A model generated the notes under the pieces. That model did not search any database, was not told the origin of the DNA, and saw only the letters and a program-made list of their open reading frames with translations. Position numbers and translations under genes: made by a program. Positions 17,513 to 21,646 of a DNA stretch of 22,136 nt are shown piece by piece. Source of the stretch: a virus; the IMG/VR virus record IMGVR_UViG_3300007734_000475, positions 1 to 22,136 of that record. The stretch is one strand, 5' to 3'. The number at the start of each line of letters is the position of its first letter. Within the stretch, counting starts at the first letter, position 1.

Positions 17513-17887
17513 ATGCCTAACATTCCCACACCGCAAGATGTTGCTTTATTCGCACAAAGTGTCAGAAAGTGGCAACAAGTGCTGAGTTTGGGTGATTGGA
17601 GAATAGAGAAGGGAAGTAAACCCGCAAAGGCGGCTATGGCTTCTGTTGAGTTCAATGCTTCTGCTCGGTTGGCTACTTATAGATTGGGTGACTTTGGTGC
17701 TGAGAAGATCACACCAGAATCTCTGGATCAGACTGCTTTGCATGAGTTACTTCATGTGTTTTTGCACGATTTAATGACTGTGGCACAAGACCCTAAATCC
17801 TCTCAAGATGAGGTAGAGATGCAAGAGCATAGAGTCATCAATCTGCTAGAAAAGTTACTCTCTAAGGATTCCAATGGGTTCACATAA
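17513..17887 (+). CDS. Zincin-like putative metallopeptidase (HELLH)
   Basis: 124 residues. HELLH at 77-81 in TALHELLHVFLHDLM is a HExxH zinc-binding site with Glu78 as possible catalytic base. His85 or a Glu in DEVEMQEH (99-106) may give the third ligand. The N-terminal half (VRKWQQVLSLGDWRIE ... VEFNASARLATYRLGD) resembles the strand-rich start of SprT- or minimal-zincin phage proteins. Proteins of this size with this motif are common in phage genomes with unproven activity. Ribosome site AAGG lies 8 nt before the ATG. It overlaps the next gene by 14 nt. Confidence 0.75.
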   Translation: MPNIPTPQDVALFAQSVRKWQQVLSLGDWRIEKGSKPAKAAMASVEFNASARLATYRLGDFGAEKITPESLDQTALHELLHVFLHDLMTVAQDPKSSQDEVEMQEHRVINLLEKLLSKDSNGFT

Positions 17888-18860
17888 CGAAACGTGTACG
17901 GATATGGAGTTCATCCAACTCTGGGAGAAACTGCAATCTGCAACCGAAATAGCTAAACACCTTGGAATCCCCAACAGAGCAGTTCATTTGCGTAGAAGGT
18001 GGATTGAGGAAAACCACAAGATTACCCTCATAGCAAAAGACCATCGTGGTGCTAACTATGCCGCTAACAGACCAAAATCCTTCTCTCCTTTAAGACAAGT
18101 AAAGCTCGGCATACTGGATGGGACTGTCATTGTGTTCTCAGATGCCCACTTCATCCCGAGTCAGCGTACAACAGCCTTTAAAGGGCTTCTATGGGCTATA
18201 GAACAGTTCAAACCCAAGGTTCTGATATGTAACGGGGATGCCTTTGATGGAGCGTCTATATCTCGCCATGATATAACTGACCAACCACAGACTTCTGTCA
18301 TCCAAGAGTTGAAAGCTACGCAAGGTGCGTTGGGTGAGATAGAGGAAGTCGCTAAAGCAGCGAGGCACAATGTAAAGCTCTTGTTTACATGGGGAAATCA
18401 CGATATTAGATTCGGTAATCGTTTAGCCCAACACGCACCCCAATTTAAGGAAGTTCAGGGCTTTAAGCTGACAGACCACATCCCAGATTGGGACTTTTGT
18501 TGGGCAGTATGGCCTACAGATAACGTAATTGTTAAGCATCGATATAAGGGTGGAATCCATGCCACTCACAACAATACTGTCAATGCGGGAGTCTCGGTGG
18601 TTACGGGGCATCTTCATAGCCTCAAAGTGACCCCTTTTAGCGACTATAACGGGGTTCGGTATGGGGTAGATACGGGGACTTTAGCTGAGACTGATGGGCC
18701 ACAGTTTACTTACGCTGAAATAAACCCAAGCAACCATAGATCAGGTTTTGCAGTGTTAAACTTCTTCAATGGTCAGCTTTTATGGCCTGAACTCGTCCAT
18801 AAATTTGATGAAGACCAGATTCAATTTAGGGGTGAAGTGATTGATGTAGGTGCATTTTGA
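17874..18860 (+). CDS. HTH-containing calcineurin-like metallophosphoesterase
   Basis: 328 residues. Residues about 11-48 (MEFIQLWEKLQSATEIAKHL then GIPNRAVHLRRRWIEE) form a helix-turn-helix like those in small terminase or homing proteins. The catalytic domain follows: Asp90-x-His92 (SDAHF), Gly121-Asp122...Asp125 (NGDAFDG), GNHD (174-177), a His in KGGIHATH (229/232) and GHLH (245-248), the complete set of two-metal phosphoesterase motifs. It may act on nucleic acids, nucleotides or phosphoproteins; the HTH favours DNA. AAGGA before 17874 supports that start over the internal ATG at 17904. It overlaps genes on both sides. Confidence 0.85.
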   Translation: MGSHNETCTDMEFIQLWEKLQSATEIAKHLGIPNRAVHLRRRWIEENHKITLIAKDHRGANYAANRPKSFSPLRQVKLGILDGTVIVFSDAHFIPSQRTTAFKGLLWAIEQFKPKVLICNGDAFDGASISRHDITDQPQTSVIQELKATQGALGEIEEVAKAARHNVKLLFTWGNHDIRFGNRLAQHAPQFKEVQGFKLTDHIPDWDFCWAVWPTDNVIVKHRYKGGIHATHNNTVNAGVSVVTGHLHSLKVTPFSDYNGVRYGVDTGTLAETDGPQFTYAEINPSNHRSGFAVLNFFNGQLLWPELVHKFDEDQIQFRGEVIDVGAF

Positions 18861-20129: not shown

Positions 20130-20314
20130 CTCACCCTCCTTAATGGCTCTTGATACTTCTCTGGTGGCGGTGGTGGAGGAATCATATTCTCCGAGGGTGG
20201 AGTCCATCCATGCTTTCTCCATAGTGCTTGGACATCCGATCCAGACTCCCATTTAAAGTCTTTCAGAGGGACTGAAGGGTAGCTAATCTTGGAATGTGGT
20301 GGTAGTTCTATCAT
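20126..20314 (-). CDS. Small Pro-rich hypothetical protein
   Basis: 62 residues. MIELPPHSKISYPSVPLKDF, then ALWRKHGWTPPSENMIPPPP and an Arg-rich end (YQEPLRRVR). The WRKHGWTPPSE piece resembles a short motif found in phage early proteins. A Pro-run hints at an extended linker or binding peptide. It has 4-nt overlaps with the genes on both sides. No function is assigned. Confidence 0.6.
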   Translation of the reverse strand: MIELPPHSKISYPSVPLKDFKWESGSDVQALWRKHGWTPPSENMIPPPPPPEKYQEPLRRVR

Positions 20315-20643
20315 TTTGCTGCCCTCATCACCCTTTGATTACGACCAAATTTGCCTCGTTTGACACCCGAAACTTCAATAAATCCCTTGTCTAACAAAGC
20401 ACGATACCTTGCCGTTATTGAGGAATATGGGTAGTCTGGGAACATACCAAGGATGTCGTCTGAGATACACCCCTCTGGAAAGCCTTTAATAGCCTCATAG
20501 ACCATTGTTTCTAGCTTGGTGGTGTCAACTGCTTGAGCTGCTTGATGGCTCGTTACAGGGTCTTCTCGTCTAGCCAGTTTAAACGCTGGCGTACCAAAGA
20601 ATCTTTCCATTGATTCTTTCATGCTTCCAAAAATATCATTCAT
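20311..20643 (-). CDS. Winged-helix-like DNA-binding protein
   Basis: 110 residues. EDPVTSHQAAQAVDTTKLET (about 28-47), VYEAIKGFPEGCISDDILGM, then YSSITARYRALLDKGFIEVS and a GKFGRNQRVM wing form the pattern of small phage winged-helix proteins (SHxAA ... hSDDI ... ITxRxxxLxxKGxI). They probably bind DNA and may regulate early genes or replication; the target is unknown. Ribosome site GGAG lies in a repeated 17-nt leader. A T3-promoter-like sequence lies directly upstream. The gene leads the distal part of the minus block and overlaps the next gene by 4 nt. Confidence 0.7.
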   Translation of the reverse strand: MNDIFGSMKESMERFFGTPAFKLARREDPVTSHQAAQAVDTTKLETMVYEAIKGFPEGCISDDILGMFPDYPYSSITARYRALLDKGFIEVSGVKRGKFGRNQRVMRAAK

Positions 20644-20729: not shown

Positions 20730-20984
20730 TCAGAAAGGCATTGATTCGTCATCAAATCCTGTTGCTTTAGAACGCTCTGATGGCTTGGGTTTATATTCGT
20801 CACGAGGCGCTACTGCCAAACCCATAAACTTGCCCTTCTTACCCTCTTTAATCCATGCTGATAGCCAATAGTCTTTGCCATCAACAGTAATATTTCCCTT
20901 GTACTGAGGAGACCTTTCATTCTCGATTTTGTCGGATTTAAAAAGGACACCGCTGTTGTCCCGCTGATTTTGTTTCTTTTCCAT
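20730..20984 (-). CDS. SSB-like single-stranded DNA-binding protein with acidic tip
   Basis: 84 residues from the ATG at 20984, which has AAGGAG upstream; longer versions lie inside the annealing-protein gene. The core (SGVLFKSDKIENERSPQYKG, VDGKDYWLSAWIKEGKK, FMGLAVAPRDE) is a small OB-like strand pattern rich in Lys and aromatic residues. The last residues, GFDDESMPF, closely resemble the acidic C-terminal tip of bacterial SSB (E. coli DFDDDIPF), the docking point for SSB partner proteins. It starts inside the stop codon of the annealing gene (1-nt overlap), a fitting partner. The role is inferred from tip, core and context. Confidence 0.65.
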   Translation of the reverse strand: MEKKQNQRDNSGVLFKSDKIENERSPQYKGNITVDGKDYWLSAWIKEGKKGKFMGLAVAPRDEYKPKPSERSKATGFDDESMPF

Positions 20985-21646
20985 TACAGCTCCTTCGCCT
21001 TTTTTAATGATGTACGCACTTTGCTTGGCAGAAGTGTCCAGAGGGCAATTTTCTGTTCCCCGTCTAGGTTCTGCTCTTCCAATTTTACCCAAGCTGCCTT
21101 GGGATCACCCTGTTCGCAAGTAGCAATCAGTTCAATTGCTAATTCCTCTAGGTATCGTAATTCCTCCATAGGAATGTTGTCTGTTGCGCCCTGAGTAGGC
21201 GTAATCACTACTGATCTGCCCTCTTCTGGTAGGTCTTCACCCGCATAGATGTATAGAGAGAGTCCATGTAGGGCTAAAGCCTTGGTCATGCACCTCATAA
21301 TGGCTGTATTGACCGCAAAAGCATCAGGATTAGGGATAGCCTTGTTCCGATAGTCCATGACGGGTAACTGGCAAGTCATTGGCTTTTTAAACATGGTAAC
21401 TGTAACAAATACCATTGCTGTGCCGTTAATGTCCATAAAGCACTTGCCATCGAACATCTCTACCCTATAAGTAGCGTCTGCATCAGCTTTGAGAGCCTCT
21501 GCCCATGCCCAAGCCCATGACAGGTAGGACAGGCCGTTCTTTTTCTCAAGATGACCATTGACATTTGTTGCCAACAGTTTTGCAATTAACTCTTTGCGTT
21601 CAACCAAAGTGCCTGGTTGGTTTGGGTCTTGTGTATAAGTGTTCAT
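20984..21646 (-). CDS. DUF1071-type single-strand annealing protein (Sak3/Erf-like group)
   Basis: 220 residues. The start at 21646 is chosen because ACAGGAGTTAAT precedes it; an 18-codon longer frame lies upstream of this site. GHLEKKNGLSYLSWAWAWAE (31-50) and MDYRNKAIPNPDAFAVNTAI then MRCMTKALALHGLSLYIYAG (97-136) are the two signature blocks of the DUF1071 family, phage proteins thought to anneal complementary strands in homologous recombination. The C-terminal third is helical and acidic, then basic (KVRTSLKKAKEL). The adjacent SSB-like gene supports a recombination module. No exonuclease partner is seen in the window. Confidence 0.82.
   Translation of the reverse strand: MNTYTQDPNQPGTLVERKELIAKLLATNVNGHLEKKNGLSYLSWAWAWAEALKADADATYRVEMFDGKCFMDINGTAMVFVTVTMFKKPMTCQLPVMDYRNKAIPNPDAFAVNTAIMRCMTKALALHGLSLYIYAGEDLPEEGRSVVITPTQGATDNIPMEELRYLEELAIELIATCEQGDPKAAWVKLEEQNLDGEQKIALWTLLPSKVRTSLKKAKEL

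Follow-up and report, generated by a model that had tools for sequence, protein, structure and literature searches.

The window analysed here is the whole stretch of 22,136 nucleotides taken from the IMG/VR virus record IMGVR_UViG_3300007734_000475, and all coordinates given for it are positions within that stretch. It carries sak, the gene of a single-strand annealing protein, followed by a smaller gene whose SSB-like product terminates in GFDDESMPF (Table 1). The two genes meet in the sequence TAATG, in which the stop codon of sak (TAA, 20986-20984) and the start codon of the SSB-like gene (ATG, 20984-20982) have one base in common. Thus, the earlier description of an 84-residue protein with this ending, starting within the sak stop codon, is confirmed by its translation and by the overlap itself. 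Additionally, both starts are plausible, as an AAGGAG resembling a ribosome-binding site can be read inside sak just 5′ of the SSB-like ATG, and an AGGAG precedes the ATG of sak. The SSB-like gene is followed, at a distance of about 86 bases and in the same orientation, by a 110-aa ORF that matches phrog_1123, a group with no function annotated (E 6.7e-9), and that has no match in Pfam. Elsewhere in the window, downstream of the endolysin region, a metallophosphoesterase gene was observed (17874-18860, plus strand; PF00149, E 9.6e-7), the start of which shows a weak helix-turn-helix match. No match to defence-system models was obtained in the analysis.

Table 1. Features of the sak locus, with positions in the 22,136-nt window
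Feature	Position	Strand	Basis
sak, single-strand annealing protein (Sak/DUF1071), 220 aa	21646-20984	minus	PF06378 SSAP_Sak
84-aa SSB-like protein	20984-20730	minus	translation, C-terminal GFDDESMPF
Core, residues 10-61, predicted to form four beta strands	20802-20957	minus	AlphaFold2 model
Linker, residues 62-77	20754-20801	minus	pLDDT 53-60, variable
Acidic tip DDESMPF, residues 78-84	20733-20753	minus	column conservation
110-aa ORF	20311-20643	minus	phrog_1123

Judging from its match to PF06378 (E 1.2e-39; 135.7 bits, above the family cut-off of 22.3), the sak product is a member of the Sak annealing proteins. It also matches phrog_659 (E 5.1e-45) and has a solved relative, the PDB chain 8qe9_1A, described as “DUF1071 domain-containing protein” (E 9.1e-22). 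The 84-aa protein, in turn, matches two groups annotated as “single strand DNA binding protein”, phrog_18154 (E 6.8e-13, residues 7-58) and phrog_7364 (E 9.9e-9, residues 5-72), and by the similarity of its core it is a member of this phage SSB family, in which the phrog group also takes in the two-core protein p31 of phage phiVC8. The SSB name of these groups is an annotation, and neither an ssDNA-binding measurement nor other biochemistry on family members was found in the literature searched, the coverage of which was partial.

Relatives of the 84-aa protein were gathered from IMG/VR and from phage records, with individual relatives serving as queries. Relatives were found in 25 phage records with the 84-aa protein as query and in 140 with the core of a relative, and further relatives occur in 115 IMG/VR stretches. 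Some of the collection scans had tip peptides among their patterns, each candidate also needing a tblastn match; the tip count given below was obtained solely with a core profile (residues 10-61), built to avoid selecting on the tip, which recognised 201 complete proteins, all distinct, among the loci retrieved. In bacterial genomes, a scan with the 84-aa protein found no relative, and one with the core consensus found three (two in betaproteobacteria and one in Paramagnetospirillum), all of them ending in -PF.

The earlier note had asked whether the ending is conserved among homologues, and it is: an exact PF end is present in 188 of the 201 relatives, and 187 of these 188 have at least two acidic residues among the six that precede it. 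By comparison, only two of 1,370 other ORFs of at least 100 aa from the same loci end in PF, and none has an acidic tip, so the conservation of the tip is not a matter of chance. Among the other 13 relatives, nine retain a sequence resembling the tip, at the very end or close to it (e.g., DDDIPW, DDDIPFAMEWR or DDNLDDVAF), and the tip is absent from four (L158, L283, L284 and, in L089, the first gene of a pair). In L158 (1658-1891), an unrelated ending stands in place of the tip, apparently as a result of a frame change. In the alignment of 78 relatives, P83 and F84 are each 97% conserved, and the linker that joins the core to the tip shows low column conservation and large variations in length. 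Read as sequence, the tip has the features of the acidic C-terminal tip of bacterial SSB, which in E. coli is quoted as DDDIPF (PMC5928155).

The resemblance to bacterial SSB is confined to this tail. NCBIfam SSB models do not match the 84-aa protein, and in its relatives they match the tail only (profile positions 115-177 of 177); likewise, in a profile search of the PDB, SSB chains were matched only in their last ~26 residues. Consequently, it is the tail, together with the gene context, that supplies the sequence evidence for an SSB function, and not the core, which has no detectable sequence similarity to the OB DNA-binding domain of bacterial-type SSB. The name that databases give to the family may itself derive from the tail.

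The structure of the core was considered from predicted models. An AlphaFold2 model based on 78 relatives shows four strands (residues 11-16, 28-34, 37-48 and 51-60) and no helix, with a pLDDT of ~86-92 in each block of ten residues between 11 and 60 and ends of low confidence. A second model, obtained for the core of the relative from L082 with 70 relatives, has the same four strands and no helix, at moderate confidence. The conserved residues of the core are P26, G30, W44 and G51, and among the 78 relatives W44 is 99% conserved and an aromatic residue is found at position 40 in 85%, at position 44 in 99% and at position 53 in 95%. These three positions alternate with polar and basic residues and, within the predicted sheet, they would suit stacking on ssDNA.

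Fold comparisons returned weak matches. Foldseek searches of the PDB yielded nothing significant for either model (best E 0.69 and 0.63), nor did a sequence and profile search of solved structures, the best match of which was to PC4 (E 0.56). With a second-look aligner, Borrelia Pur-alpha was on top for both the first model (Z 4.2, rmsd 3.8, 49 aligned residues) and the L082 model (Z 3.9, rmsd 3.6, 50 aligned), values of a size that, by the aligner's own caveat, may mean merely a common arrangement. Further PUR and PC4 rows stand below, mixed with unrelated proteins and including, for the first model, the PC4 homologue of phage T5. The likeness to the ssDNA-binding proteins of the PUR and PC4 types (3nm7, 8cht, 4bg7, 6ycs) lies in a four-stranded antiparallel sheet and extends over 42-50 residues, with weak Z values of 2.6-4.2. 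In PUR and PC4 proteins, which form dimers, the sheet is followed by a C-terminal helix, whereas none is predicted in the 84-aa protein. The best current description of the core is thus a predicted four-stranded sheet of ~50 residues. The OB fold for which the earlier note had proposed a structure prediction is so far unsupported, as each model consists of four strands, lacks a helix and has no significant fold match.

Some members of the family carry more than one core. For instance, p31 of phiVC8 (L288:2501-3016) contains two copies in a single chain (60.8 and 43.2 bits), followed by a DFDDDIPF tip and then by 14 residues. Additionally, in L089 (2229-2710) there are two adjacent genes with a core in each and a tip in the second only. 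As p31 and the L089 genes carry paired cores, they hint that two cores work together, as those of a dimer would.

A possible parent family, DUF736 (PF05284), was considered and set aside, since the order of its motifs (P-D-F/Y, A-x-W, Y/F-x-S-V) is suggestive and resembles that of our family, but the statistics are too weak: four of 12 members of our family match DUF736 weakly, below the Pfam cut-off (best E 0.018), the first member scores 12.1 bits where 22.1 would be required, and hhalign assigns a probability of 6.9% to the relation between the two profiles. Separately, two plasmid proteins from Burkholderiaceae (L286:1291-1788 and L287:1285-1785), one of them annotated as DUF736, have the family core in their second half and end in DEDIPF or DDEIPF. 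A DUF736-type plasmid protein from Sphingobium (L295:301-903) has an ending, NDLNDEVPY, that resembles the SSB tip.

The genomic settings of 196 distinct relatives were also compared, in tallies that reflect the choice of queries and should not be read as frequencies in nature. A Sak gene lies at most 3 kb upstream in 104 of them, and in 57 of these 104 the genes are within ~17 bases of each other. The others are found with Erf (42), with an exonuclease only (11), with PolA, DnaB or UvrD only (15) or in no assigned setting (24), so that 157 of the 196 stand beside an annealing or exonuclease gene. There is a further group of loci where a YqaJ-type exonuclease gene separates the annealing gene from ssb, and in a cluster of ~26 loci (including L059, L022 and L251) an ORF, or similar frames, lies between sak and ssb, with three scanned members matching HNH_3. 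In phages such as SH-Ab 15497 and PMBT28, the family gene is located between those for DNA polymerase I and adenylosuccinate synthetase; phages of this kind are PurZ-type, 2-aminoadenine phages, an identity also given in the annotations of two related records. This arrangement, with a purZ-type synthetase gene, is seen in the phage records L005, L091, L095 and L096 and is a setting of replication and not of recombination. No annealing gene was found in reach of the members linked to DNA polymerase I.

With a slightly looser definition, the tip is kept in all of these settings (Sak, 104 of 104; Erf, 41 of 42; exonuclease only, 11 of 11; replication, 15 of 15), which argues for a general docking tail of the SSB type, not one made for Sak alone. 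Among 102 Sak-linked relatives, 72 have L or M before PF, where I or V predominates elsewhere; we do not press a tuning to the partner, as shared ancestry explains this shift equally well. The idea that the small protein guides its own annealing protein has to be loosened, since the conservation of the tip is not specific to Sak and extends to genes that neighbour Erf or DNA polymerase I. At the present locus, Sak is the likeliest partner by position only. As for the two-gene recombination unit that had been proposed, the coupled sak-ssb pair (abutting in 57 of 104 cases) and the conserved tip stand, and the OB fold has so far found no support. The hijacking of SSB-binding enzymes of the host, also suggested in the earlier note, is a possibility.

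Gene pairs of this kind, and loading that depends on the tip, have been published. In phage HK620, the gene of the annealing protein Sak4 adjoins that of a phage SSB, and removal of the last six residues of this SSB abolishes the binding of Sak4 to SSB-coated ssDNA and cuts recombineering tenfold (PMC5928155). The HK620 SSB also has an acidic -PF tip, but it belongs to DUF669, has a mass of 21.3 kDa and behaves like a tetramer (PMC5928155), and its partner is a RecA-like Sak4, whereas here a Sak is accompanied by an 84-aa protein with a different core. Thus, a tip required to load the annealing protein has been demonstrated for HK620 and would apply to the 84-aa family by analogy. In the staphylococcal phage 80alpha, a Sak-family annealing gene also has an adjacent ssb, and the two act together genetically and are both needed for normal replication; however, the 80alpha Ssb is 79% identical to the host SsbA and hence an ordinary SSB (PMC5499656), in contrast to the 84-aa protein, in which no similarity to the DNA-binding domain of SSB is detectable. 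The order duf1071-ssb is prevalent in phages of Firmicutes (PMC8093625). The adjacency of an annealing gene and ssb recurs in the present family with both Sak and Erf, as in pairs of the HK620 and 80alpha kind, and what differs is the small and probably non-OB core.

We consider it fairly probable that the 84-aa protein is a miniature SSB of the phage, made jointly with Sak, with a four-strand core that would lie on ssDNA and a tip that would dock partners. The overlap of the two genes would allow their products to be produced together. The core of ~50 residues, a predicted four-stranded antiparallel sheet that probably forms a dimer or a larger assembly, would bind the ssDNA left by an exonuclease or by replication through a face of aromatic and basic residues (W40, W44, K46 and F53). 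A flexible linker would bear the SSB-type acidic tip, available for docking DNA-processing partners, and the tip would recruit Sak (in other phages, Erf or enzymes of replication) to the coated ssDNA, with annealing as the outcome. The nearest proof for such a loading of Sak is that of Sak4 by the SSB tip of HK620. Counted against this explanation are the weak fold matches (best Z 4.2, best Foldseek E 0.63), the equal conservation of the tip where Sak is not a neighbour and the perhaps tail-based SSB name.

Other explanations were considered as well. The tip might mainly occupy host SSB-binding proteins (e.g., nucleases, RecO or PriA), the small protein being a decoy or recruiter paired with Sak for operon convenience. 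The retention of the tip where no annealing gene is found in reach would agree with this, as would the presence of the E. coli tip, DDDIPF, in nine of 14 exact-PF cases from phages with their own polymerase. Nevertheless, the core is strongly conserved too, and the fact that 157 of 196 relatives neighbour a gene for annealing or for an exonuclease agrees better with a role in coating and recombining DNA than with a decoy alone, so we regard this explanation as unlikely. It has also to be asked whether the core binds DNA at all, as it could bind Sak or Erf instead, with the tip mimicking SSB and directing the annealing protein to sites or enzymes of the host that bind SSB. Such an adaptor or mediator would account for the tight linkage to two annealing families and for an SSB resemblance confined to the tail, but it sits poorly with the conserved aromatic face of the core and with members beside PolA and PurZ, near which no Sak or Erf was found, and we hold it to be quite improbable.

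A different doubt concerns the fold alone and is compatible with an SSB function, namely that the core has a shortened OB fold not captured by the models, in an otherwise ordinary small SSB. The lack of a fold match does not preclude this, and the only OB-fold proteins recognised among the fold matches listed are weak Foldseek rows of the OB-type SSB of phage Enc34 (5odl, 5odk and 5odj; E 2-3.2, ~31 columns). By contrast, both models place four strands and no helix in ~50 residues, and for both a PUR protein heads the second-look rows, those of the PC4 type standing further down. A shortened OB fold therefore seems rather unlikely, and the core of the miniature phage SSB is probably non-OB.

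More broadly, and as a tentative suggestion that we hold less firmly than the miniature phage SSB itself, the family could be a widespread one of phage SSBs in which a tiny PUR/PC4-like four-stranded sheet in place of an OB fold, single or in tandem, has independently acquired the tip of bacterial SSB to load Sak, Erf or polymerases. A family that now bears the SSB name, with no test of it found in the literature searched, would thereby receive a functional basis. Should the core bind ssDNA through a fold other than OB, the tip of SSB would amount to a portable docking tag, carried by unrelated DNA-binding modules. The small pair would then also offer a compact test case for the loading of Rad52-type annealing proteins by the tip and, together, sak and the mini-SSB gene would be a possible recombineering cassette for bacteria in which the present ones work poorly.
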